Shown: piece after piece, positions 49,520 to 60,317 of the stretch
How the letters are laid out: the number at the start of each line of letters is the position of its first letter
Numbering within the stretch: position 1 is the first letter of the stretch
DNA from: Acrocarpospora catenulata
Lineage (GTDB): Bacteria > Actinomycetota > Actinomycetes > Streptosporangiales > Streptosporangiaceae
NCBI RefSeq assembly: GCF_018476525.1
Contig: NZ_JAHCST010000010.1
Coordinates: forward strand, 124,001-188,000
DNA length: 64,000 bases
Reading direction: 5' to 3'
Notes under the pieces: model-generated
Told to the model about the DNA's origin: nothing
The model's input: only the letters and a program-made list of their open reading frames with translations
Databases searched by the model: none
Position numbers and translations under genes: made by a program

Positions 49520-51442
49520 TCAGTTCAGGTCCAGAGCAACCTCCAGGCGCAGGTAAGCGTCAATCCAGGCCTCCTCCACCGCCTCGTCGGAGTCGTGGCT
49601 CCGCCTCGCCGCGAAGGCCGTGACGGCCTGCGCGATGCGATGGAGTCCGAGCACGCTCAACCGCCGTGCCGCGGCGGCGAGCCGGACGTCGTAGGTCGGC
49701 AACAGGTGAGACAAACCGTGATGGGCCACCTCGGCGAGCAGCCCCCGGGTGTCGATCAGAGCCGCGGTCAGTGGTCCGTGCCGGTCGTCCTCGGCGACCA
49801 GGAGCCTGCCGCTTCCCACGGCAGGCTGTAGGTCGGGGACGACGACCCGGCCGCCGACCGCCAGACCGACCGGTTCGATGACGACACCGCCCGCGGTCCG
49901 CCCGACCACGCCGCTGACGAAACGCAGTTCGCCCTCCTCGCCGGCGAGCACGGCGGCCAGCGAGTAGAGGCGTCCGAGGGCGGCGCCGGTGTGCGTGGCT
50001 CTGACGGTGGCGGTGTTCCCCGCCTGGTCGACGATGACCGCGTCGAGACGCTGGTCTCCGGGAGCGTAGGTGATGGTTTCCACCCGAGCGACGGCGACGA
50101 CCCTGACCAGTTCCGCCTCCACCCGCGGGCGGATGGGCCGGAGCGTGAGGGCGTCGAGCTCACGGCTGAGCACGGCGAAGTCGGTCACCACCAGCGACGG
50201 CGACAGTTCACCCCAGTCGCCCCGGGACGGGCTGACTGTCGTCTTGGAGATCCGCCCGGTGGCCAGCCGCACCGTACGGCTGGCGCTGCGGACGGCCGAC
50301 TCCGTGACCAGGTTGCCGGTGGCCAGCGCGGCCAGCGTGGACGTGGCGATCCGCCGCCCCGCCAGCGCCTCCCCGTCCTCGTCGCCGTCCCACCTACGGC
50401 GCAGGACCAGCACCATGGCACTGTCGCTGTGGGCCAGATAGACCTCGGCGATCCGCTGATCGCCGAGACCGCGGATCCGGCAGCCGAGGCTCTCCAGCCG
50501 GGCCCGGCGCAACGGGGTCTCGGCGGCCTCGGCGGTGCCGAGCACGCTGCTGCGCAGGGTGGAGTCCGGCCGCGTCACCGCCCGGTGCCGGGCGTGCAAC
50601 TCGGCGAGGTGGCTCGCGAGCAGCTCGGGACGGTAGTGGGCGCTACGGTCACGATAGGAAGCCAGTTGCTCGGCGAGGTCGCCGACGGCCAGCAGCGGCC
50701 AGCGCAACCCCGCGCCGTCCAGGTGGCGCTGCACGTCGGCGATGGTGGCCTCCAGGCCCTGACCGAGATGCGCCGCACCCTCGCGCAGGACCGTGCCGGC
50801 CAGGCCCAGGGCCCGCTCCAGCCCGGATCCGGTACCGGCTTCGGCCTCGCCACCGACGTCGACCCGCACCTCGGGCACGCCCGGGTGCAGCTCGTCGGCG
50901 ACCCGGAACGCCCACACCGCCAGGGCGATCACGTCATCGCGACTACCGGCCACGGTGTCGGTGTGCACGAACCCGAGGTCGCCGGGGACCAGAAAGCGCA
51001 CGGTCGCGGTAGCCAGCTCGACCTGCGGCACCGGATCGGTGGAGGTCGCGCGGCGGACCCGCGCGGTGAATCCGGTTCTTTCCGTACGGCGAGCGGCGGC
51101 CATCAACCGGGCCCCGATCTTGGCGGTGAGTTCGTCGTCGGTCACCTGCCCCGGTGACCAGGGCAGGGGCTCCGGGGCGGCCTCAGCGGGCTGACGCTGG
51201 TAGGCGAGGATCACCCCGACGACGTGCCGGCAGACGCCGGTGGCGCCGCAGGTGCAGCGGGCCACGTCGAGGCCGCCGGGAGGCAGGGTCGCGGTCAGCC
51301 CGTCGGGGAAACTGCCGTGCACGGTGCCGTCAGCGTCGGTCGAAAGCTCGGGCGCGGCTTCCTTGCCGGCACGTTTGACCAGACCGCGATTGGTGAGCGC
51401 GGCGAGGGAGTCCGCCGTGAGCCCGAGCAGATCCGTCCTCAT
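49520..51442 (-). CDS. SWIM zinc-finger protein (YehQ-like)
   Basis: A 640-residue protein. A SWIM zinc finger lies near the N-terminus: RCTCGATGVCRHVVG, with C63, C65, C71 and H73. The rest is a large uncharacterised alpha/beta region found in bacterial SWIM proteins linked to MoxR-vWA genes. SWIM fingers bind DNA or protein. It is the fifth and last gene of a five-gene operon and overlaps the vWA gene by four bases. It corresponds in place and type to E. coli yehQ. Confidence 0.88.
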   Translation of the reverse strand: MRTDLLGLTADSLAALTNRGLVKRAGKEAAPELSTDADGTVHGSFPDGLTATLPPGGLDVARCTCGATGVCRHVVGVILAYQRQPAEAAPEPLPWSPGQVTDDELTAKIGARLMAAARRTERTGFTARVRRATSTDPVPQVELATATVRFLVPGDLGFVHTDTVAGSRDDVIALAVWAFRVADELHPGVPEVRVDVGGEAEAGTGSGLERALGLAGTVLREGAAHLGQGLEATIADVQRHLDGAGLRWPLLAVGDLAEQLASYRDRSAHYRPELLASHLAELHARHRAVTRPDSTLRSSVLGTAEAAETPLRRARLESLGCRIRGLGDQRIAEVYLAHSDSAMVLVLRRRWDGDEDGEALAGRRIATSTLAALATGNLVTESAVRSASRTVRLATGRISKTTVSPSRGDWGELSPSLVVTDFAVLSRELDALTLRPIRPRVEAELVRVVAVARVETITYAPGDQRLDAVIVDQAGNTATVRATHTGAALGRLYSLAAVLAGEEGELRFVSGVVGRTAGGVVIEPVGLAVGGRVVVPDLQPAVGSGRLLVAEDDRHGPLTAALIDTRGLLAEVAHHGLSHLLPTYDVRLAAAARRLSVLGLHRIAQAVTAFAARRSHDSDEAVEEAWIDAYLRLEVALDLN

Positions 51443-52557
51443 CGGCCCACGTGCTCCGCCACGAAGGACGCCAGCTCGCCGGGTGTCATCGCACCCACGT
51501 AGGCTCCGGCATCGGCCAGGCGCTGCGCCAGCTCCCGGTCGTAGGCGGGATTGGCCTGCTCATCGAGGGCGGCCAATCCCAGCACCTTGCTGCCCTGCGC
51601 CACCAGGTCGCGCACGATGCGCACCAGCCGGTGCGGATCACCGCCCTCGTAGAAGTCGGAGATCAGCACGACGATCGCCCGGCGCGGCTGATCCACCAGG
51701 CCGGCCCCGTACGCCGCCGCGCGGGCGATGTCGGTGCCGCCGCCGAGCTGGACCTTCATCAGCAACTCCACCGGGTCGTCGACGTCGGCGGTCAGGTCCA
51801 CCACCTCGGTATCGAAGGCGACCAGGTGGGTGCGTACCCCGGGCAACCCCCACAGGCAGGCCGCGGTGACCGCCGAGTGGATCACTGAGTCGACCATCGA
51901 CCCGGACTGGTCGACGAGCAGGATCACCTGCCACTGCTCAAGGTGGCGGCGGGTGCGGGAGAAGAAGTACGGGGTCTCGATCACCACCTTGCCGGTCTCC
52001 GGCTGGTAGCGGCCGAGGTTGGCGCGCAGGGTCCTGACCATGTCGAAATTGCGGGCCAGCCGCATCCGGCCGGGCCGTCGCACCTTGGTGCCGGAGAACG
52101 CGCTGCGCACCTCGGTGGCGAGCTTGTCCATCAGCTGCCGGACGACCTGCTCCACGATCCGCCTGGCCAGCCGCAGCACCTGCGGGTTCATCAGGTGCTT
52201 GGTCCGCAGCACCGCCTTGAGCAGCGCGGGATTGGGTTCGATGCGCGCCAGCACGGCCGGGTCGGTCACCACGTCATGGATCTCGTAACGCTCGACCGCG
52301 TCCCGTTGCAGTCGTTCGATGGTCTCCTTGGGGAACAGCCGGGTGATGTCGTCGAGCCAGTCAACGGTGGTCAGCGTTGATTCGCCCGTCCCGCCGCGCC
52401 GTACCCCACGTCGGCGCAGGTCCTCGTCGCGGCCGTAGAGCCAGTCCATTGCCGCGTCACGGGCGGCGGCCTCTGCGTCGAGCTGCTGCCCGCCGAGGCA
52501 GGCGCTGCCCGCCTCGCCGAGCAGCAGGCGCCACCGTTCCAGGGTGGGGTCGGTCAT
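51439..52557 (-). CDS. vWA-domain protein (YehP-like)
   Basis: A 372-residue protein. The von Willebrand A domain occupies about 205-370 with a complete MIDAS: D216-Q-S218-G-S220, T275 in GGGTD and D301 in ISDF. The first 200 residues are helical and Arg-rich. The metal site would bind an acidic residue of a partner, in such operons often the MoxR AAA ATPase or its client. Coupled by four-base overlaps to both neighbours. Confidence 0.92.
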   Translation of the reverse strand: MTDPTLERWRLLLGEAGSACLGGQQLDAEAAARDAAMDWLYGRDEDLRRRGVRRGGTGESTLTTVDWLDDITRLFPKETIERLQRDAVERYEIHDVVTDPAVLARIEPNPALLKAVLRTKHLMNPQVLRLARRIVEQVVRQLMDKLATEVRSAFSGTKVRRPGRMRLARNFDMVRTLRANLGRYQPETGKVVIETPYFFSRTRRHLEQWQVILLVDQSGSMVDSVIHSAVTAACLWGLPGVRTHLVAFDTEVVDLTADVDDPVELLMKVQLGGGTDIARAAAYGAGLVDQPRRAIVVLISDFYEGGDPHRLVRIVRDLVAQGSKVLGLAALDEQANPAYDRELAQRLADAGAYVGAMTPGELASFVAEHVGR

Positions 52558-54797
52558 GACGCGATCAGTCCTTCCCGGCGCAGTGCCGCCTCGACCCGCT
52601 CGTCCAGTGCCCTACCGGCGGCCACCAGCTCCGGTGCCGCCTCCAGCCGCATCAGATCCCAGCCGGCCACGTCGCCGGCGCGCCGTTCGACCAGACGAGT
52701 GGCGATGAGGTGCCGCTCGCGGGGCGAAAAGAAGCCGAACGCCTGGCGCAGCGCGGGCAGGGCCACCAGGAAGTCGTGATCGGTCATCCCGCCGACCAGC
52801 TCATCGAGCAGTTCCAGCATGCCGGCGGTGTGCAGCACCTCCTCGCGGGCGAGCGCGAACAACCCGGCCAGCCAGTCCCCGGCCGACGCCGGGACGAACG
52901 CGCCGCGCAAGGCCCGGGCGGGGTCCGCGGCCGCCGTGCCCCGCAGTGACCAGCCCAGACCCAACGACGCTCCACGCAGGTCGGGTGGCGCCTCCTGGCG
53001 GGCGGCGAGCCGGTCCGCGACGCCCAGCGCCGCGTCCGTGTCCAGTCCGAGTGACGGACCGGCGTGTCTGAGAGCGTCGCGGACGGCGGTCACCGCGTCG
53101 ATGCGCTGGAGGTCGGCCGGTGCGGGGCCGCCGCGCACACCTTCGGCCAGCCACAGCGCCCGGCGGGTGGCGGCCTGGACCACCGTGCCCAGGGTGGTGC
53201 TGCCGCTGGTGCCGAACAGGCCGTCGTGGCGCCACATCGCCAGGGTGACGGTGAGGGTGCGGCCCAACGATCCCAGATCGGCCGCCGCGCCGACAGCCCG
53301 CGCCAGATCGTCCAGCACCTGTCCGGTCAGTTCGCCGATGCCGCACAGCGCCGCGTCGAACAGGACGTCGGCCAACTGGTCCAGATCCGCGCCCGCGATC
53401 CGTTCGGCGAGGGCGGCAGCCGCCGCCTCCTGCGGGTCCACGCCATACCCACCGGCCTCGATCAGCGCGGGCAGCCGGTCGTCGGACTCGGTCAGCGTCC
53501 ATCTTTCGACCAGCTCCGTACCGCCTGCCGGGCCAGGTCCCGAGATGCGCGTCACGCCGGGGATCCGCAGCACCCGCAGCCGGTGCAGCAACCGGCTGCG
53601 ATCACGGTCGGCCTCCTTGCCGAGGTCGAGCCGTTCCTCACCCGGACCGCCCAAGACCGCGAGAACCGTCCGGACCAGCGGTGGCAACGGAGTCGAGTGA
53701 TGCAGGCGGCCCACCCGGTCACCGCTGAGGGCCGCGATCATCTCCACGATCACCGGATGGTTGCCCGCCTGCAGCGGGCCACGGGTCGCCCAGGGCAGCG
53801 GGGCTTCGAGCGCCTCGCTGACCAGCGCGCTGGCCAGGCCGTCCAGCACATCGACCCGGGCCGGATGCGGATGACCGCGCAGCAACGCGAGCCCGTCCGC
53901 GATGGCCCGAGCGGCGATCAGGTCCGCGGTGGACACCGGCTGACGACGGCCGCGCAGCCGGGCCGCCACCGCCTCGGTGAGCCTGCGGGCGGCGTCGGCG
54001 GGACCGGACTCCCACAGGTCCTGGTAGTAGCCCGGCGACGGCATCCCCGACTGGTAGCCGTCGAAGGCGTCCAGCCGCCGGAACGAGTACGGCACCAGGT
54101 AGCTGCCGACGGCCGCGCCCTCGGGCGGCTGCGGCACCTCAGGCCAACTCCGGTCACCCTGCTCGGCCAGCCGGATCAACGCGGGGCGGTGGAAGCCGCC
54201 CGTGACCACGACCACCGGCCGGTCGCCCGCGTCGGCGACGGCGGCTCGGATCCACTGGGCCATGTACGCCTCGCGGGCCACGTCGTCCGGCCCGGTCCGC
54301 GTGTCGCCGCGCACCAGTTCGAAGTAGGTGCCCAGCCGTTCGGCCAGCCCGTCGGCCGGCTCGATCTCGAACAGGTGGTCCCACAACGCGTCCACGTTGT
54401 CCACGGCGAAGGTACGGTACAGCCGTCCGGTCACCTCGTTGTAGCGGGCCTCGGCGTCGGCGTAACGGTTGCGGACTTCGGCCAGCGCCGGATGCCAGGC
54501 GGGCAGGTCGATGAAACGCAGCTCGGAGCCGACGTCACGGCCCGCCGTCAGCGCCGTCCACTCCGGGGAGTAGTCGCACAGCGGCGTCCATGAACCGTGC
54601 CGTCGCTGCGAATCCCGGTAGCTGGTGTAGACCGCGATCGGCAGCTCGTGATCCAGCAGGAGCTCATCCATCCGGTGGTTCATGTCCGCCGGGCCCTCGA
54701 CCAGCACATACGCGGGCCGTACGGAATGAACGGTCTCGGCGACCAGCCGGGCACAGGCGGGACTGTGGTGCCGCACGCCCAGGAAGGTGACCGTCAT
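52554..54797 (-). CDS. DUF5682 family protein (YehM-like)
   Basis: A 747-residue protein of unknown function. It begins MTVTFLGVRHHSPACARLVA, a conserved opening with a VRHHSPACA motif, then VLVEGPADMNHRMDELLLDH and later VVVVTGGFHRPALIRLAEQ. The N-terminal third resembles TraB/erythromycin-esterase-like folds with conserved His/Glu, suggesting a possible catalytic role, but this is inference. The remainder is helical. ATG 54797 lies two bases beyond the MoxR stop; an upstream extension is not supported. Confidence 0.88.
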   Translation of the reverse strand: MTVTFLGVRHHSPACARLVAETVHSVRPAYVLVEGPADMNHRMDELLLDHELPIAVYTSYRDSQRRHGSWTPLCDYSPEWTALTAGRDVGSELRFIDLPAWHPALAEVRNRYADAEARYNEVTGRLYRTFAVDNVDALWDHLFEIEPADGLAERLGTYFELVRGDTRTGPDDVAREAYMAQWIRAAVADAGDRPVVVVTGGFHRPALIRLAEQGDRSWPEVPQPPEGAAVGSYLVPYSFRRLDAFDGYQSGMPSPGYYQDLWESGPADAARRLTEAVAARLRGRRQPVSTADLIAARAIADGLALLRGHPHPARVDVLDGLASALVSEALEAPLPWATRGPLQAGNHPVIVEMIAALSGDRVGRLHHSTPLPPLVRTVLAVLGGPGEERLDLGKEADRDRSRLLHRLRVLRIPGVTRISGPGPAGGTELVERWTLTESDDRLPALIEAGGYGVDPQEAAAAALAERIAGADLDQLADVLFDAALCGIGELTGQVLDDLARAVGAAADLGSLGRTLTVTLAMWRHDGLFGTSGSTTLGTVVQAATRRALWLAEGVRGGPAPADLQRIDAVTAVRDALRHAGPSLGLDTDAALGVADRLAARQEAPPDLRGASLGLGWSLRGTAAADPARALRGAFVPASAGDWLAGLFALAREEVLHTAGMLELLDELVGGMTDHDFLVALPALRQAFGFFSPRERHLIATRLVERRAGDVAGWDLMRLEAAPELVAAGRALDERVEAALRREGLIAS

Positions 54798-54799
54798 CG

Positions 54800-55876
54800 T
54801 CAGCCCGGCAGCAGGTGACGGGCCTCGTACAAGGCCTTCCACTGGTCGCCGTGCCGTCGCTGCTCCAGATATCTGCGGAGTTTCGCCAGGTCCTCCGGGT
54901 TGTCCTTGGCCGCCGTGCCGGCCAGGCAGGAGACCAGGTCCGCGGCGGTGCCGGGCTCGCCGCGCAGGAACCAGCCGCGCAGCCCGACGGCGTGCGCGAC
55001 CGAGACGGCCTCGGCGGTGCTCATCACCCCCGACAGCCGGTCGGTGGCGTCACCGCGCGCGGTCTGCCCCTCGCGCAGCTCCCGGAACGCGGTGACCAGG
55101 ACCTCCAGCACGTCGCGCCGTGGCGGCGCGCCGACGCCCGACCGCTTCAGGAGAGCGGTGGCCTCCGCTTCCACCAGTCGCAGCTCGGTGTCGAAGTCGG
55201 CGATCGGGAAGACCGTCTCGAAGTTGAACCGGCGTTTGAGCGCGGCGCTCATCTCGTTGACGCCGCGGTCGCGGGTGTTGGCGGTGGCGATGACGGTGAA
55301 CCCCTCCCGGGCGAACACCATGGCCTCCGGACCGGTCAGCTCCGGTACGGCGAGCACGCGGTCCGACAGAGGCGACAGCAGGCAGTCCTGCACCTCCAGC
55401 GGGCACCGGGTGATCTCCTCGAAGCGCACCACCTTGCCCTCGGCCATGCCGCGCAGCAGCGGAGCGGCCACCAGCGACCGGGTGGACGGGCCCTCGGCGA
55501 CCAGCAACGCGTAGTTCCACGAATACTTGATCTGGTCTTCGGTGGTGGCCGCGCCGCCCTGGACGGTGAGCGTCGAGGTTCCGCTCACCGCCGCGGCGAG
55601 CAGCTCGGACAGCAGCGACTTCGCGGTGCCCGGCTCACCCACCAGCATCAGCCCGCGGTTGGTCGCGAGCGTCACCAGGGATCGGTCGATCAGTGAAGGA
55701 TCACCCACGAACTTGCGGCTGATGCCCAGCTTCTCGTCCCCGAGGACGAAGCGCCGGGCGGCCCGCAGGCTCAACGCCCAGCCGGGCGGCCGGTCGTCGG
55801 CGTCGTGCTCCCGCAGCCGGGCCAGCTCGTCGGCGTAGCGGATCTCCGCCGGGGGCCGCTGGACGTGCTCGTTCAT
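54800..55876 (-). CDS. MoxR-family AAA ATPase (YehL-like)
   Basis: A 358-residue AAA+ ATPase. Walker A is GEPGTAKS at 80-87, Walker B VVRFEEI about 149-155, sensor 1 ATAN about 197-200, and arginine-finger region KRRFNFE. MoxR ATPases act as chaperones that insert cofactors or remodel complexes, usually with a vWA partner, which is encoded two genes further. The ATG overlaps the DUF4132 stop by four bases. Confidence 0.93.
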   Translation of the reverse strand: MNEHVQRPPAEIRYADELARLREHDADDRPPGWALSLRAARRFVLGDEKLGISRKFVGDPSLIDRSLVTLATNRGLMLVGEPGTAKSLLSELLAAAVSGTSTLTVQGGAATTEDQIKYSWNYALLVAEGPSTRSLVAAPLLRGMAEGKVVRFEEITRCPLEVQDCLLSPLSDRVLAVPELTGPEAMVFAREGFTVIATANTRDRGVNEMSAALKRRFNFETVFPIADFDTELRLVEAEATALLKRSGVGAPPRRDVLEVLVTAFRELREGQTARGDATDRLSGVMSTAEAVSVAHAVGLRGWFLRGEPGTAADLVSCLAGTAAKDNPEDLAKLRRYLEQRRHGDQWKALYEARHLLPG

Positions 55877-58800
55877 CGGGTGACCTCCCGCAGGTCCCGC
55901 AGGATCTCGGAGACGGTGATCGGATCGAGGCCGTCGAGGGCGATCCCCACCAGGGTCTGCTCGTCGGCGAAGTCGAGGTATCCGACCGCGATGCCCGGAT
56001 CGAGGCCGATCGTGATGGTCCTGCCGTCGGGCACGTCCCGCTCGATCCAGCCCTGCCAACCGGCGTCCTGCGGCGCGCCTCGCCGCCAGCCGCGCCGTTC
56101 CAGGCCGACCACCTTGACGGTGGGGACTCTGGTGGCGCTGATCTCGGCCAGCAGCGTCTCATCCAGGTGATAGGTCTCCCGGCCCAGTTGCGGGAACGGC
56201 TGCAGGATCTCGTAGTCGGCGAACACCTCGGCCCAGGCGGCCAGCTCCTCCGCCAGCTCCAGCGGGTGCGCCACCCCGATGACGGCCTCGTCGGGCAACG
56301 TCAGCGTGTCGTCCTCGACATCGGCGAAACTGCGGTCCTCGGCCACGCGCAACGCGCCGGTGAGCAGGCCCGAGGGGTCGTAGACTCCCCACACCAGCCG
56401 TCGCACGATGTGCCAGAGCAGGGGATGACCGACCAGCAGCCGCCTGAACTCCGCACCACTCCAGCGGCGCCGGCTCACCATGGCCTGCTCCAGCCGGTGG
56501 ATGTTGTCCGCGGCCACGGCGCGTACGTCCTTCTTCAGCCCGGCGAACCGCTGGTAGGCGGCAGGCGCGAGCTCCGGATCGTCGTTCACCCCTGGCTTGG
56601 GAAGGTTCTTGAGCTTCTTCCCCGCGGCGTCGGCCACGTACGGCTTGAGCTGCTCGTCGAAACCGACGACGAACTGCCTGCGGCCGTAGTCGAGGGTCAG
56701 GCTGCCGTCGGCGGACAGTCCGAAGTCCGGCACCAGCCGGTCGGCCAGCTCCTGCGACGTCAGGCCGAGTTCCGCGGCCACCTCGTCCATCTTCTGCCTG
56801 GCCCGGTTCTTGAGCCCGTTGAACTTGACCTTCTCGGCGATGCCGTGCAGGTGCATCAACGCGACCTCGGAGCCGATGCCGGCCAGCAGGTCAAGACCGG
56901 TGACCGCACGCGCGTGTCCGCCCTCACCGGGCCAGGCCCTGATCAACGGCGTCAGCCGCCGGACGGTCTCGTCGTCGCCGAGCAGCCCCAGCGCGTCCAT
57001 CACCCAGCTCTCCTTGGCCGGGTAGCCGGCCGCCTGCCAGCGCTGGAACAGCGCCCAGCCGAAGTCCGCGAGGCTGCGGCTGTCGCAGGCCTGTCTGACC
57101 AGGGCGAGACCGGCGTACGGATCACCGGGCCGGGAGATCGCCAGCATCGTCATCACATGGCGGACCGCCTCGGCCGGCAGCGCGCCCGCGTCGCCGTGCA
57201 GGTGGATCGGTGTCAGGATCGCGACCTCCGCCCATTCGGGCAGCACGGGCATCTTGTCAGGCAGCGCGTCGAGCGGGTCGGCCGAGATCAGGTCGGCGAC
57301 CGCGGCCTCGGCAGCTGGGCCGTAACCCGCGGCGGCCTCCGTCACAGCGTCGCGGCCACCGCCTGCGGCCAGCACGGCCAGCGCCTGCTCCGCCTGTCGC
57401 CGGGCCGGCCCGGGCTTGCCCAGAGCCGCCGGGATCAGCGCCCGCGCAGCCGCCTCGGGGTGGCGTGCCAGCCACGCCAGCGCGGTGGCCCGCACCGACT
57501 TCAGCCGGGCCAGCCACTCGGCCATCAGCACAGCGATCTCCGGGCCGGTGAACGGAAGCAGCGCCGGAGCGATCGCGGTCGGGCTGCGCCGGGCGGTGTC
57601 CAGCACCATGGGCAGCGCGGCCAGCTCGAACCTGGCGACCACCCTCGGCATCCATTCGGAGGCTCCATACGGGTCAGCCCAGCGCCACTTCTCGATCAGC
57701 GGTTCGGCCAGCTCCATGGGCCCGGAGACGAACAGGGCAACTTCGTCGTACCAGTAGCTCTCTCGGGCATTGGCGATCCGGTCGGCAATCTCTTTCCAGT
57801 TCCGGCTGGGCCGACTCCATGAACCGTGCCCAGGCCGGGCGGAACGCCAATTGTCCCGCTCGTCCGGCCCCCACACCAGGGTCGGCTCATCGGCACACAC
57901 CAGGCCACTCACGACGACCGGCTTGCGGGCCGTACGCGGACGGGTCCAAGGAGGGCTGACCAGTACCTCGGGCAAGGCCTCAAGCGGAGCAGTGGGGACG
58001 GCAGCGGCTGTTGCGATCTTGTTGATTCGATCGGCGGCGGCACCATCAACGCTCGCGAGCACCTCGGCCACCAGGTCGGGATGGGCCAGCACGTGGGCGC
58101 GCAGCAGCAGGTCCGCGACCTTGCCATTGGTGGTGGCCAGCATCCGCATCGCCCGGCGCGGGAAGCGGGCCGCCGCGCGCAGGAGGGCCGGCTGGGTGTA
58201 CTTGTGCTCGATCCGGTCGAGGAGTGCCCGCATCGCCGCGTCTGTCGGCAGTTCGGCGAGCACACCCAGCAGCCGCCGCTGGCTTTCCGAGTCGTAGAGT
58301 TCGTCGAACCAGCCGGCCAGCACCGGCACGGCCGCGTCACCCATGCCGTCGACGATCGTGACAGGCAGAGTGAGGGGGCTAATCATGCCGTAACCCGGCA
58401 GGTGGCTCACGATGAGCGCCGCATGCTCCGGCGTGCTGATCGCGGCGATCAGGCCGAGGGCGAGATGCGGATTGACGCGGCTCACTTCGGCGCAGTCGGC
58501 CGCAACCCAGTCGACCTCGGTCGGCGCCAGGTAGGAAGCCGCCGCTCGATGATGGAGCCCGCCGTCACGGCTTTCGGCCAGTGCGGCGACGACCTCGGCA
58601 TACTCGGCATCCGATGCGGCCGCGAGGGCGACACGGACCCGCGCGGCGATCTCCGTCCGATTCCAGTCGACCCAGTGGTTGGGGGATTCACCGTTGGCCA
58701 GCCGCCGGACTGCTCGCGTGTGCTCGTCGACAGCCATGCAATCCAGCGAGGACAGTTCGGCCACGGCCACTGCCGCGAACATCAGGCCACGTTCGACCAG

Positions 58801-59376
58801 CCAAACGTCGGCGAACAGGCGCAGCGACGACTGATTGTCCCATGGCAGGAATGCGGCCACCATTTTCGCGACCACCGCAGCGCCAAGCGGCGTGGCGGTG
58901 GGCTCCCCGGCCAGGTACGCCGCGCCCGCAGCAGCGATCTCCGGGTCGGAACACTGCGCCAGCGAGTCAATGATCGTCTGCCGGCGCTCGTCCAACCATG
59001 CGGCGAGTTTCTTGGGCGCGCCGGCGTCCGGCCTTCTCGCGGCGACCTTCACTCCACCCCGCCGCGGATGGAGAGCGCGCAGCCACGCGGTCGGCATCGT
59101 CAGCCGATCCTCATCCTCGGCGCTGTCGATCTCAGCCGGGGAGGTCACCGGCGCGGCGACCGCTTCGTCTTCCGTGTAGCCCTTGCGTAACTTCTCCGCC
59201 ACCAGTTTGTCGGCCGCCGCCGCGGCGGCGTCGGCGGAGTCGAACGACCTGACCTGCGTCTGACCGGCCGCGCCCAGCCGCCCATACCGGATGTTCAGCT
59301 CCGTACCGTTCTGCCGCACTTCCCAGAACTTCGCCGAACCGCCGCCGACATAGGTCAGCAGCCGATCTGCGCTCAT
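55873..59376 (-). CDS. WGR/DUF4132 protein (YehI/MolR-like)
   Basis: A 1167-residue protein and first gene of the five-gene operon. The N-terminal 75 residues form a WGR domain (KFWEVRQNGTELNIRYGRLG), a module that contacts nucleic acid in PARPs and related proteins. A very long helical-repeat middle follows. The C-terminal third holds DUF4132: LVWGVYDPSGLLTGALRVAE, VEDDTLTLPDEAVIGVAHPL and QPFPQLGRETYHL. GGAGG seven bases before the ATG supports the start. Operon order and domain content match E. coli yehI with yehL-M-P-Q. Confidence 0.92.
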   Translation of the reverse strand: MSADRLLTYVGGGSAKFWEVRQNGTELNIRYGRLGAAGQTQVRSFDSADAAAAAADKLVAEKLRKGYTEDEAVAAPVTSPAEIDSAEDEDRLTMPTAWLRALHPRRGGVKVAARRPDAGAPKKLAAWLDERRQTIIDSLAQCSDPEIAAAGAAYLAGEPTATPLGAAVVAKMVAAFLPWDNQSSLRLFADVWLVERGLMFAAVAVAELSSLDCMAVDEHTRAVRRLANGESPNHWVDWNRTEIAARVRVALAAASDAEYAEVVAALAESRDGGLHHRAAASYLAPTEVDWVAADCAEVSRVNPHLALGLIAAISTPEHAALIVSHLPGYGMISPLTLPVTIVDGMGDAAVPVLAGWFDELYDSESQRRLLGVLAELPTDAAMRALLDRIEHKYTQPALLRAAARFPRRAMRMLATTNGKVADLLLRAHVLAHPDLVAEVLASVDGAAADRINKIATAAAVPTAPLEALPEVLVSPPWTRPRTARKPVVVSGLVCADEPTLVWGPDERDNWRSARPGHGSWSRPSRNWKEIADRIANARESYWYDEVALFVSGPMELAEPLIEKWRWADPYGASEWMPRVVARFELAALPMVLDTARRSPTAIAPALLPFTGPEIAVLMAEWLARLKSVRATALAWLARHPEAAARALIPAALGKPGPARRQAEQALAVLAAGGGRDAVTEAAAGYGPAAEAAVADLISADPLDALPDKMPVLPEWAEVAILTPIHLHGDAGALPAEAVRHVMTMLAISRPGDPYAGLALVRQACDSRSLADFGWALFQRWQAAGYPAKESWVMDALGLLGDDETVRRLTPLIRAWPGEGGHARAVTGLDLLAGIGSEVALMHLHGIAEKVKFNGLKNRARQKMDEVAAELGLTSQELADRLVPDFGLSADGSLTLDYGRRQFVVGFDEQLKPYVADAAGKKLKNLPKPGVNDDPELAPAAYQRFAGLKKDVRAVAADNIHRLEQAMVSRRRWSGAEFRRLLVGHPLLWHIVRRLVWGVYDPSGLLTGALRVAEDRSFADVEDDTLTLPDEAVIGVAHPLELAEELAAWAEVFADYEILQPFPQLGRETYHLDETLLAEISATRVPTVKVVGLERRGWRRGAPQDAGWQGWIERDVPDGRTITIGLDPGIAVGYLDFADEQTLVGIALDGLDPITVSEILRDLREVTR

Positions 59377-59549
59377 GCCGATACCTCCACGCTGGGTTTG
59401 ATGTAGGGCTCGTTGTTAGAGCGAAGGAGAGGCCGCGCCATCTCCGATGCCTCGTGATCGCCAGCGCCGAGTATTGCGCGTACGACTGACAAACTGGCGC
59501 GCACCGCATCGCCGGCGGATTCACCGCGTGGAGTTGAGAAGACGACGAA

Positions 59550-59597: not shown

Positions 59598-60317
59598 TCA
59601 GCCGGTGACCGGGATGTTGGTCTTCACCGGCGTCGGGGTGGGCGCGGGCTTAGGTTTGTCCTGCGTGACGTTCTCGTCCCACTCGATCCATACCTGGGTC
59701 ACCTTCTCAGGCGGGGTCGGCGACTTCGACGGCGAAGGCGACTTCGAGGGCGAGGGCGACGGGGAAGGCGACTTCGAGGGTGAGGGTGAGGGCGACGGCG
59801 ACTTCGAGGGCGACGTCGAGGGCGACGGCGAGGGCGACGGAGAAGGGGAAGACGGCGAGGGCGACGGGGAAGGCGTGGACTCACACTCGACCCAGAACAC
59901 CTTCTGCTTGGCCGCGCCCTTCTGGCCCACGAAGGTCCAGAACAGCTTGTAGTGCCCATCCGGCAGCGTCATGTCGGCGGTACGGCCATGGCCGTTGCCG
60001 TCAAGCACGAGGGTGCCGCTCTTCACCGTGGTCTTGTCGCCCGTGGGCGGCCAGGACTTGATCTCCCAGCTCACCTGCTGGATCGAGTCGAAGTTGAACC
60101 CGACCAGATAGAACACGCAGACCTGCGGCTCGTTGCGCTGATCGTCCTCCGGCGTCGTCCACGAGTGGATCTTGACGTCGCCGTTGTCGCCGGGCGCCCT
60201 CTGGAACGCTCCCGCTGAGGCCGTATTGGAGATGGCGACCGCCACGAGCGCTGCCACTGCCAGCATGAGTGCCGCTGTGGTCCAGCGACGGGCTAAAGAG
60301 AGTCTGAGGGGTGTCAC
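59598..60317 (-). CDS. Secreted Ser-Pro/Lys repeat protein ending in IPVTG
   Basis: A 239-residue exported protein. The signal peptide (RRWTTAALMLAVAALVAVAI, cleavage near ASA) leads a domain of about 110 residues with two Cys (VCVFYLVGFNF and FWVECES) that I do not recognise. It has a beta-rich look (HYKLFWTFVGQKGAAKQKVF). A Pro-Ser-Lys repeat tract of about 60 residues follows, and the chain ends KTNIPVTG. That resembles a sortase LPxTG motif but lacks the hydrophobic segment and charged tail that must follow. GAGG lies upstream of the GTG. Confidence 0.75.
   Translation of the reverse strand: MTPLRLSLARRWTTAALMLAVAALVAVAISNTASAGAFQRAPGDNGDVKIHSWTTPEDDQRNEPQVCVFYLVGFNFDSIQQVSWEIKSWPPTGDKTTVKSGTLVLDGNGHGRTADMTLPDGHYKLFWTFVGQKGAAKQKVFWVECESTPSPSPSPSSPSPSPSPSPSTSPSKSPSPSPSPSKSPSPSPSPSKSPSPSKSPTPPEKVTQVWIEWDENVTQDKPKPAPTPTPVKTNIPVTG
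59708..59878 (-). repeat. Ser-Pro-Lys repeat-coding tract
   Basis: GGCGAC/GGCGAG-type hexamer units on the plus strand encode repeated SPSPSP and SPSPSK blocks on the minus strand. The tract probably forms an extended spacer through the cell wall. Low-complexity DNA of this kind makes spurious frames on the other strand. Confidence 0.75.

Follow-up and report, generated by a model that had tools for sequence, protein, structure and literature searches.

We analysed a 64,000-nucleotide stretch of Acrocarpospora catenulata DNA, referred to here as the window, which carries a minus-strand operon of five genes running from position 59376 to 49520. The genes encode, in this order, a WGR/DUF4132 protein, a MoxR-type AAA+ ATPase, a DUF5682 protein, a vWA protein and a SWIM zinc-finger protein (Table 1). 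All five open reading frames start with ATG and end with TGA, and the junctions of -4, +2, -4 and -4 in gene order agree with the five codirectional genes reported in a preliminary description made from the sequence.

Table 1 The five genes of the operon and the candidate promoter site in the window
Feature	Position	Strand	Basis
WGR + DUF4132 protein, 1167 aa (MolR/YehI homologue)	55873..59376	-	Pfam WGR 59.1 bits (residues 10-71), DUF4132 183 bits (residues 919-1097)
MoxR-type AAA+ ATPase, 358 aa (YehL homologue)	54800..55876	-	Pfam AAA_5 122.8 bits
DUF5682 protein, 747 aa (YehM/DdrW homologue)	52554..54797	-	Pfam DUF5682 331 bits
vWA (CoxE-like) protein, 372 aa (YehP homologue)	51439..52557	-	Pfam VWA_CoxE 190 bits
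SWIM zinc-finger protein, 640 aa (YehQ homologue)	49520..51442	-	conserved CxC...CxH; YehQ match E=1e-35
PafBC-type (RecA-NDp-like) promoter variant, TTTGTCAGTC-N8-AATACT	59470..59493	-	last base 93 bases before ATG

A Pfam scan of the five proteins gave scores above the cut-offs for WGR, DUF4132, AAA_5, DUF5682 and VWA_CoxE, and a SWIM score of 14.8 bits, below the cut-off of 19.6. The finger residues C63xC65...C71xH73 of the SWIM protein are invariant in all seven aligned homologues, in keeping with the earlier assignment. Alignment of eight vWA sequences revealed invariant D216, S218, S220, T275 and D301, which we take to be the metal-ion-dependent adhesion site (MIDAS), complete as first described. 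The eight MoxR sequences share the Walker A motif GEPGTAKS, together with RDRG and ALKRRF, and all read RFEE at the Walker B position, with Glu in the place of the Asp usual in MoxR proteins. The claim of an intact Walker A and B therefore holds for Walker A and needs qualifying for Walker B.

Conservation and architecture of DUF5682 loci

A scan of named genomes confirmed at least 556 relatives, of which the best 80 were kept; all are actinomycetes, and these loci, picked by similarity and kin by descent, are not independent. The closest relatives of the window's DUF5682 protein were found in Microtetraspora malaysiensis (92%) and Nonomuraea (four at 84-89%, a fifth at 76%). All five families occur together in 72 of the 80 loci, 11 of them with extra WGR/DUF4132 matches and one with DUF5682 in two pieces, and the exact order WGR/DUF4132-MoxR-DUF5682-vWA-SWIM is kept in 60. 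Six loci hold MoxR-DUF5682-vWA-SWIM alone and two are partial; loci L068, L090 and L128 end at contig edges, and in L091 and L100 the WGR/DUF4132 match starts past the 7.5-kb limit. Because so many related loci hold all five families, the five-gene set is no product of local chance, and the neighbourhood survey proposed in the preliminary description finds a near-constant five-gene set in the nearest actinomycete relatives.

In a sample of 396 genomes from the actinobacterial phylum, DUF5682 was present in 24 and DUF4132 in 19 (18 above the cut-off). Twelve of 22 DUF4132 places lay within 15 kb of DUF5682 and the remaining ten farther away, while 11 of 35 DUF5682 places lay within 15 kb of DUF4132; the linkage count excluded three DUF5682 rows, of which two are fragments and one is the copy on A. 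catenulata contig 78. These counts indicate that WGR/DUF4132 and SWIM are the ends of a single type of locus, and that MoxR-DUF5682-vWA is the common core. Finding the families mostly apart had been named as evidence against a conserved set; DUF4132 does stand apart in those ten places, and the five together are usual for the window's type of DUF5682.

Comparison of DUF5682 loci revealed four architectures. Type I, to which the window belongs, is the Yeh form WGR/DUF4132-MoxR-DUF5682-vWA-SWIM. Type II combines SWIM-DUF5691 with MoxR-DUF5682-vWA and was found in Deinococcus, in Methylosinus, where the annotation of the locus lists no vWA gene, and in a genus designated g3, where the two parts are divergent (SWIM/DUF5691 confirmed in L040, DUF5691 in L039). 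Type III consists of a short DUF4132 protein and a protein of ~1600 aa, followed by MoxR and a fused DUF5682/vWA, and type IV of an uncharacterised protein, vWA, MoxR and a distant DUF5682 (L034 on A. catenulata contig 78, and L043). The A. catenulata genome itself contains three DUF5682 loci, in the window and on contigs 154 and 78. Genus g3, with a DUF5682 match in 11 genomes, is probably Streptomyces, since its type III loci resemble that of S. atratus.

The SWIM proteins of types II and I gave a 22% alignment over the finger region. DUF5691 was considered as a relative of DUF4132 and rejected, with an hhalign probability of 0.1% and no profile similarity. A TerD-domain gene adjoins the type IV locus L043. 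A faecal scaffold labelled as bacteriophage, a label that is unverified, encodes a DUF5682 relative of 32% identity (L062, 1453-2415), and may be bacterial DNA.

PafBC-type promoter motif in actinomycetes

Upstream regions were searched for TGTCRGTG-N8-TANNNT, which we take to be the actinobacterial PafBC/RecA-NDp damage promoter; the consensus reportedly goes back to Gamulin in 2004 and Müller in 2018. The promoter class and its activation by single-stranded DNA (ssDNA) are described in PMC8223512 and PMC11804915. The test covered 67 of the 80 loci; in the other 13, either no first gene was found or it lay at the edge of the contig or locus. The exact motif was present upstream of the operon in 21 of these relatives (shuffle mean 0.0), the motif with at most one mismatch in 30 (shuffle mean 0.08), and the core TGTCR-N11-TANNNT in 51 (shuffle mean 0.15, largest 1). 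Over both strands of the 80 loci (1.67 Mb), 22 of the 23 exact matches precede the first gene of the operon. Scoring with a position weight matrix (PWM) from other A. catenulata sites placed 46 of 68 loci (the 67 and the window) above all 60 shuffles.

Exact upstream sites occur in loci that we assign, from the organism names, to Micromonosporaceae, Thermomonosporaceae, Pseudonocardiaceae and Streptomycetaceae. Among named Streptomyces type I loci, eight of nine carry an exact site, L108 being without. In genus g3 an exact site was found at all 19 DUF5682 places of the sample, comprising 11/11 of type II, 6/6 of type III, where it lies at the operon start, and 2/2 of type I; control loci gave one match in 380 kb. 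The divergent region of all 11 type II loci (L004, L006, L008, L011, L013, L014, L040 and L232-L235) holds the exact site together with a one-mismatch site facing MoxR, and in L040 SWIM-DUF5691 lies on the far side of this pair. Of the type IV loci, L043 carries an exact site close to its upstream end.

Genome-wide, A. catenulata contains 36 exact sites versus none for a reversed-pattern control, and four g3 genomes (G128, G334, G182 and G023) contain 47-70 each versus 0-2. Thirty of the A. catenulata sites were inspected; some precede genes whose N-termini we read as those of xseA, uvrA, recF and a DinG-like helicase, and many precede genes without an obvious repair role. Tandem WYL matches lie ~6 kb from a Pup-ligase-family gene in this genome, and would represent pafBC close to pafA. 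The exact sites before eight of the nine named Streptomyces operons and, if g3 is Streptomyces, its site numbers contrast with the remark in PMC9380542 that S. venezuelae seems not to conserve the M. smegmatis motif.

The candidate site in the window has a variant form, kept as TTTGTCRGTC-N8-(A/C)ATACTC in seven sequences from Nonomuraea and Microtetraspora loci and the window (L054, L063-L067 and the window), where it is followed by a conserved stretch. It beats all 60 shuffles when scored with a PWM built from 30 further A. catenulata sites, and 10.29 Mb of sequence contain its 24-base pattern a single time. Herbidospora (L069) has an intermediate form, TGTCGGTC-N8-TAGGTT.

Several observations weigh against damage control by PafBC. 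The window site carries two mismatches to the consensus, and a scan of the window at up to three mismatches gave 45 hits versus 20.8 expected, which does not single it out. The core pattern is missing in 16 of the 67 relatives, which moreover share descent, and the putative host pafBC is identified through the WYL tandem. Exact sites were absent from the A. catenulata contig 154 and 78 loci within the sequence examined, from the type III locus of genome G204, and from seven trio loci of other families, at ~20 kb each (L041, L042, L046-L050), two of which (L042 and L046) have a one-mismatch site 2-3 kb before MoxR. Control by a Bacillus-type (actinobacterial) LexA was also considered and rejected, as upstream matches to its box are only scattered. 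We consider it very likely that this class of operon is under damage-responsive control in actinomycetes, with PafBC as the probable regulator.

Related clusters in Proteobacteria and Deinococcus

Searches with phmmer using the window proteins matched E. coli YehI, pieces of MolR, YehL, YehM, YehP and YehQ, with E-values from 1e-35 (YehQ) to 4e-146 (YehL), and 4e-13 for the short WGR piece yehF. The E. coli cluster molR/yehI-yehL-yehM-yehP-yehQ resembles the window in holding the five families contiguously on one strand in matching order, as the designation Yeh-type had implied, with identities of 65% for MoxR (YehL), 61% for vWA and 37% for DUF5682. Unlike the window, it has two tandem DUF4132 proteins and yehK, and it is under a different regulator. 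The first DUF4132 gene is split in K-12 into yehF and the annotated pseudogene yehH (L053, 2411-5270); strain F17EC0245 has an intact WGR/DUF4132 gene in the place of yehH, before the yehI homologue.

A LexA-like box, CTGGATAAAATTACAG, lies upstream of yehF in K-12 and of the intact WGR/DUF4132 gene in F17EC0245, ending 9 bases before the gene. Scanning the K-12 locus at up to one mismatch gave 10 hits versus 5.5 expected, so that the box rests on its position and on published lists that include molR among LexA-regulated genes. Of 5426 E. coli genomes, 5284 have yehM, with at least 80% coverage in 5166, and 5289 of its 5291 places are chromosomal; DNA of molR-type WGR/DUF4132 is at least 80% covered in 3988 of the 5426. 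PMC9334617 describes a resistance transposon in the metG/DUF4132/yeh region of an ST131 sub-branch.

The preliminary description held that the components keep the same order across distant phyla. The order matches in E. coli and Iodobacter but is not universal, being MoxR-DUF5682-DUF4132-vWA-SWIM on two plasmids, of Sinorhizobium and Allorhizobium. Alphaproteobacterial LexA boxes occur in the rhizobial loci but none clearly before the operon.

In Deinococcus, the type II cluster corresponds to ddrTUVWX (Deide_18730-18690), whose first gene is reported in PMC5552922 to encode a SWIM protein, to carry a radiation/desiccation response motif (RDRM), and to be induced >10-fold by radiation in an IrrE-dependent manner. 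According to published work, Deide_18710 is MoxR-like and Deide_18690 a vWA protein (PMC2669436), and D. taeanensis has an additional 78-aa gene between ddrV and ddrW (PMC9510100). In locus L059 the MoxR and DUF5682 genes are separated by a gene of 237 bases, fitting the D. taeanensis copy. Because these annotations and the extra gene match L059, ddrT to ddrX are SWIM, DUF5691, MoxR, DUF5682 and vWA. The five-gene ddrTUVWX cluster, which is damage-induced, thus shares the MoxR-DUF5682-vWA core and SWIM with the window, but has DUF5691 instead of WGR/DUF4132, SWIM as its first gene, and DdrO/IrrE control. With WGR/DUF4132 present and DUF5691 absent in the Pfam scan, the window is a sister form of ddrTUVWX rather than a member. 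A point against shared damage control is that no clear RDRM was found upstream of the L059 operon, where a search for a 17-base palindrome was unconvincing. In D. radiodurans, DRA0166 (DUF4132) and DR2173 (WGR) are reported to rise IrrE-dependently after mitomycin C (PMC8533742).

A proposed damage-inducible machine and its alternatives

The strongest clue to the purpose of these clusters is their association with three independent damage regulators. We propose, with a probability of about 0.6, that the operon encodes a DNA-damage-inducible MoxR/vWA machine acting on DUF5682, with the WGR and SWIM proteins facing nucleic acid. MoxR-vWA pairs act on partner proteins, and WGR and SWIM are nucleic-acid-type domains. 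Upon damage, which in actinomycetes would most likely act through PafBC binding ssDNA and opening the TTGTCRGTG-N8-TANNNT promoter to RNA polymerase, the coupled operon would yield its five products. Together, the AAA+ ring of MoxR and the vWA protein with its MIDAS may form an ATP-driven remodelling engine, with DUF5682 as a dedicated client or partner that is loaded or switched on by it. The WGR/DUF4132 and SWIM proteins would recruit the complex to damaged nucleic acid or a nucleoprotein, and the SWIM+DUF5691 (ddrTUVWX) and DUF4132+~1600-aa forms would be sister versions. The gene set, its homologies, the conserved motifs and the damage-type promoter motifs of actinomycetes come from the sequences analysed, and the LexA membership of molR and the IrrE/DdrO control of ddrTUVWX from published work; the action of PafBC on these sites, the physical complex, the client role, metal hydrolysis, nucleic-acid targeting and the repair benefit are what we infer.

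DUF5682 is the best candidate for the client of MoxR-vWA, because it stays with this pair in types I-IV. In all 20 aligned N-terminal domains of types I and II, RHHxP, E34, R175-E176-x2-M179 and G200xxH203 are invariant, and we take this combination of R-E-x2-M...GxxH with early His and Glu motifs to be typical of Tiki/ChaN proteins. The Pfam families ChaN ('Tiki superfamily') and TraB matched 10 and 2 of the 20 domains, with best E-values of 0.013 and 0.015, both sub-threshold, and a lone local hhalign alignment with erythromycin esterase pairs the R-x-x-x-M and H motifs. Searches of solved structures gave one weak match (2o2x, E 0.012), and a profile search gave none. Among 60 actinobacterial genomes, TraB matched in one and ChaN in none, so that a comparison alignment with either was not possible. 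Two results speak against the assignment: a plainly spurious FAM222A match (0.0037, one member) outscored ChaN and TraB, and direct homology with the erythromycin esterase EreA was rejected at a profile (hhalign) probability of 0.3%. Unlike Tiki, ChaN, TraB and EreA, DUF5682 has a long extra C-terminal region, and it lies below all curated cut-offs. The conserved motifs and the weak ChaN and TraB matches suggest that the N-terminal domain may be a metal-dependent hydrolase of the Tiki/ChaN kind; the chance that MoxR-vWA and DUF5682 operate as an engine with a hydrolase client falls somewhat below even.

More tentatively, the Yeh, ddrTUVWX and actinomycete operons may be one damage-response machine that was separately recruited by LexA, IrrE/DdrO and PafBC, in which the engine would activate DUF5682 as a Tiki-like metallo-hydrolase aimed by WGR/SWIM at damaged DNA or at proteins trapped on it. 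If so, its repair or clearance activity would be of a new type. The occurrence of three damage regulators in three phyla provides a testable statement, that the cluster belongs to the DNA-damage response, and ties together three separate puzzles, namely the listing of molR among SOS genes, the place of ddrTUVWX within the radiation regulon, and Yeh. Such a cluster is carried by nearly all E. coli genomes (5284/5426, by yehM) and a minority of actinobacteria (24/396, by any DUF5682). In the literature, which was covered in part, we found no paper giving a function for the cluster, and none linking the Yeh, ddrTUVWX and actinomycete clusters or placing the operon under PafBC.

An alternative is a metal- or cofactor-insertion module without DNA specificity, in which MoxR-vWA(CoxE) activates DUF5682 for general stress metabolism and damage is one of several inputs. 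This is unlikely given that the damage regulators of the three phyla are unrelated and that WGR and SWIM, domains of nucleic-acid type, accompany the trio; CoxE-type vWA and MoxR pairs are known in enzyme activation, and DUF5682 does resemble a metal-site domain. A chaperone role for MoxR with vWA was proposed by de Groot 2009.

A phage-defence or conflict system, which would sense foreign or damaged nucleic acid and trigger arrest with the damage promoter serving as an infection cue, appears quite improbable. MoxR-vWA ternary conflict systems are known (Kaur et al. 2020), and, like the window, combine a MoxR AAA+ protein, a vWA protein and a third protein. The operon had been described as a Yeh-type ternary system; we do not place it among the four subsystems of Kaur et al., since Pfam detected no VMAP, iSTAND, FtsH or beta-propeller in the five proteins, and a bpMoxR match fell below the cut-off. 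The main text of that paper contains no occurrence of SWIM, WGR, DUF4132, DUF5682 or yeh. An Iodobacter plasmid copy adjoins a type I restriction-modification locus, and WYL regulators are reported to govern phage-defence loci as well. PADLOC models gave a single weak match (WGR_XIII, E 2e-4) and no other at E 0.01.

The flank comparison took alternate loci from the 66 of full length, and so 103 of the 194 flank genes; it matched 38 PADLOC families in 103 proteins, versus 47 in 93 control proteins that were not genus-matched; PD-T4-6 models dominate both sets, among the 25 families listed for each. The flanks are thus no richer in PADLOC families than the controls, contrary to the defence-island enrichment that had been envisaged, and almost every E. 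coli genome has yehM, on the chromosome. Of the roles first suggested, sensing or repair of damage gains from the promoter evidence, and phage defence or conflict loses from the PADLOC, flank and yehM results.

That the motif is a general strong-promoter element with a spurious link to damage is hardly credible, since, although it includes a -10 element, the A. catenulata genome has 36 sites versus 0 reversed, some of them before genes read as xseA, uvrA, recF and a DinG-like helicase, and control loci gave 1 match in 380 kb.

Among the flanking genes of L063-L141, two products match DUF2201 (putative metallopeptidase with a VWA-like domain), and one matches the DNA polymerase III alpha subunit and could be the damage-linked DnaE2. 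The gene directly upstream of the operon in the window (59598-60317, minus strand) encodes a long Ser-Pro-Lys repeat tract ending in PVTG, and its product is perhaps secreted or linked to the cell wall.

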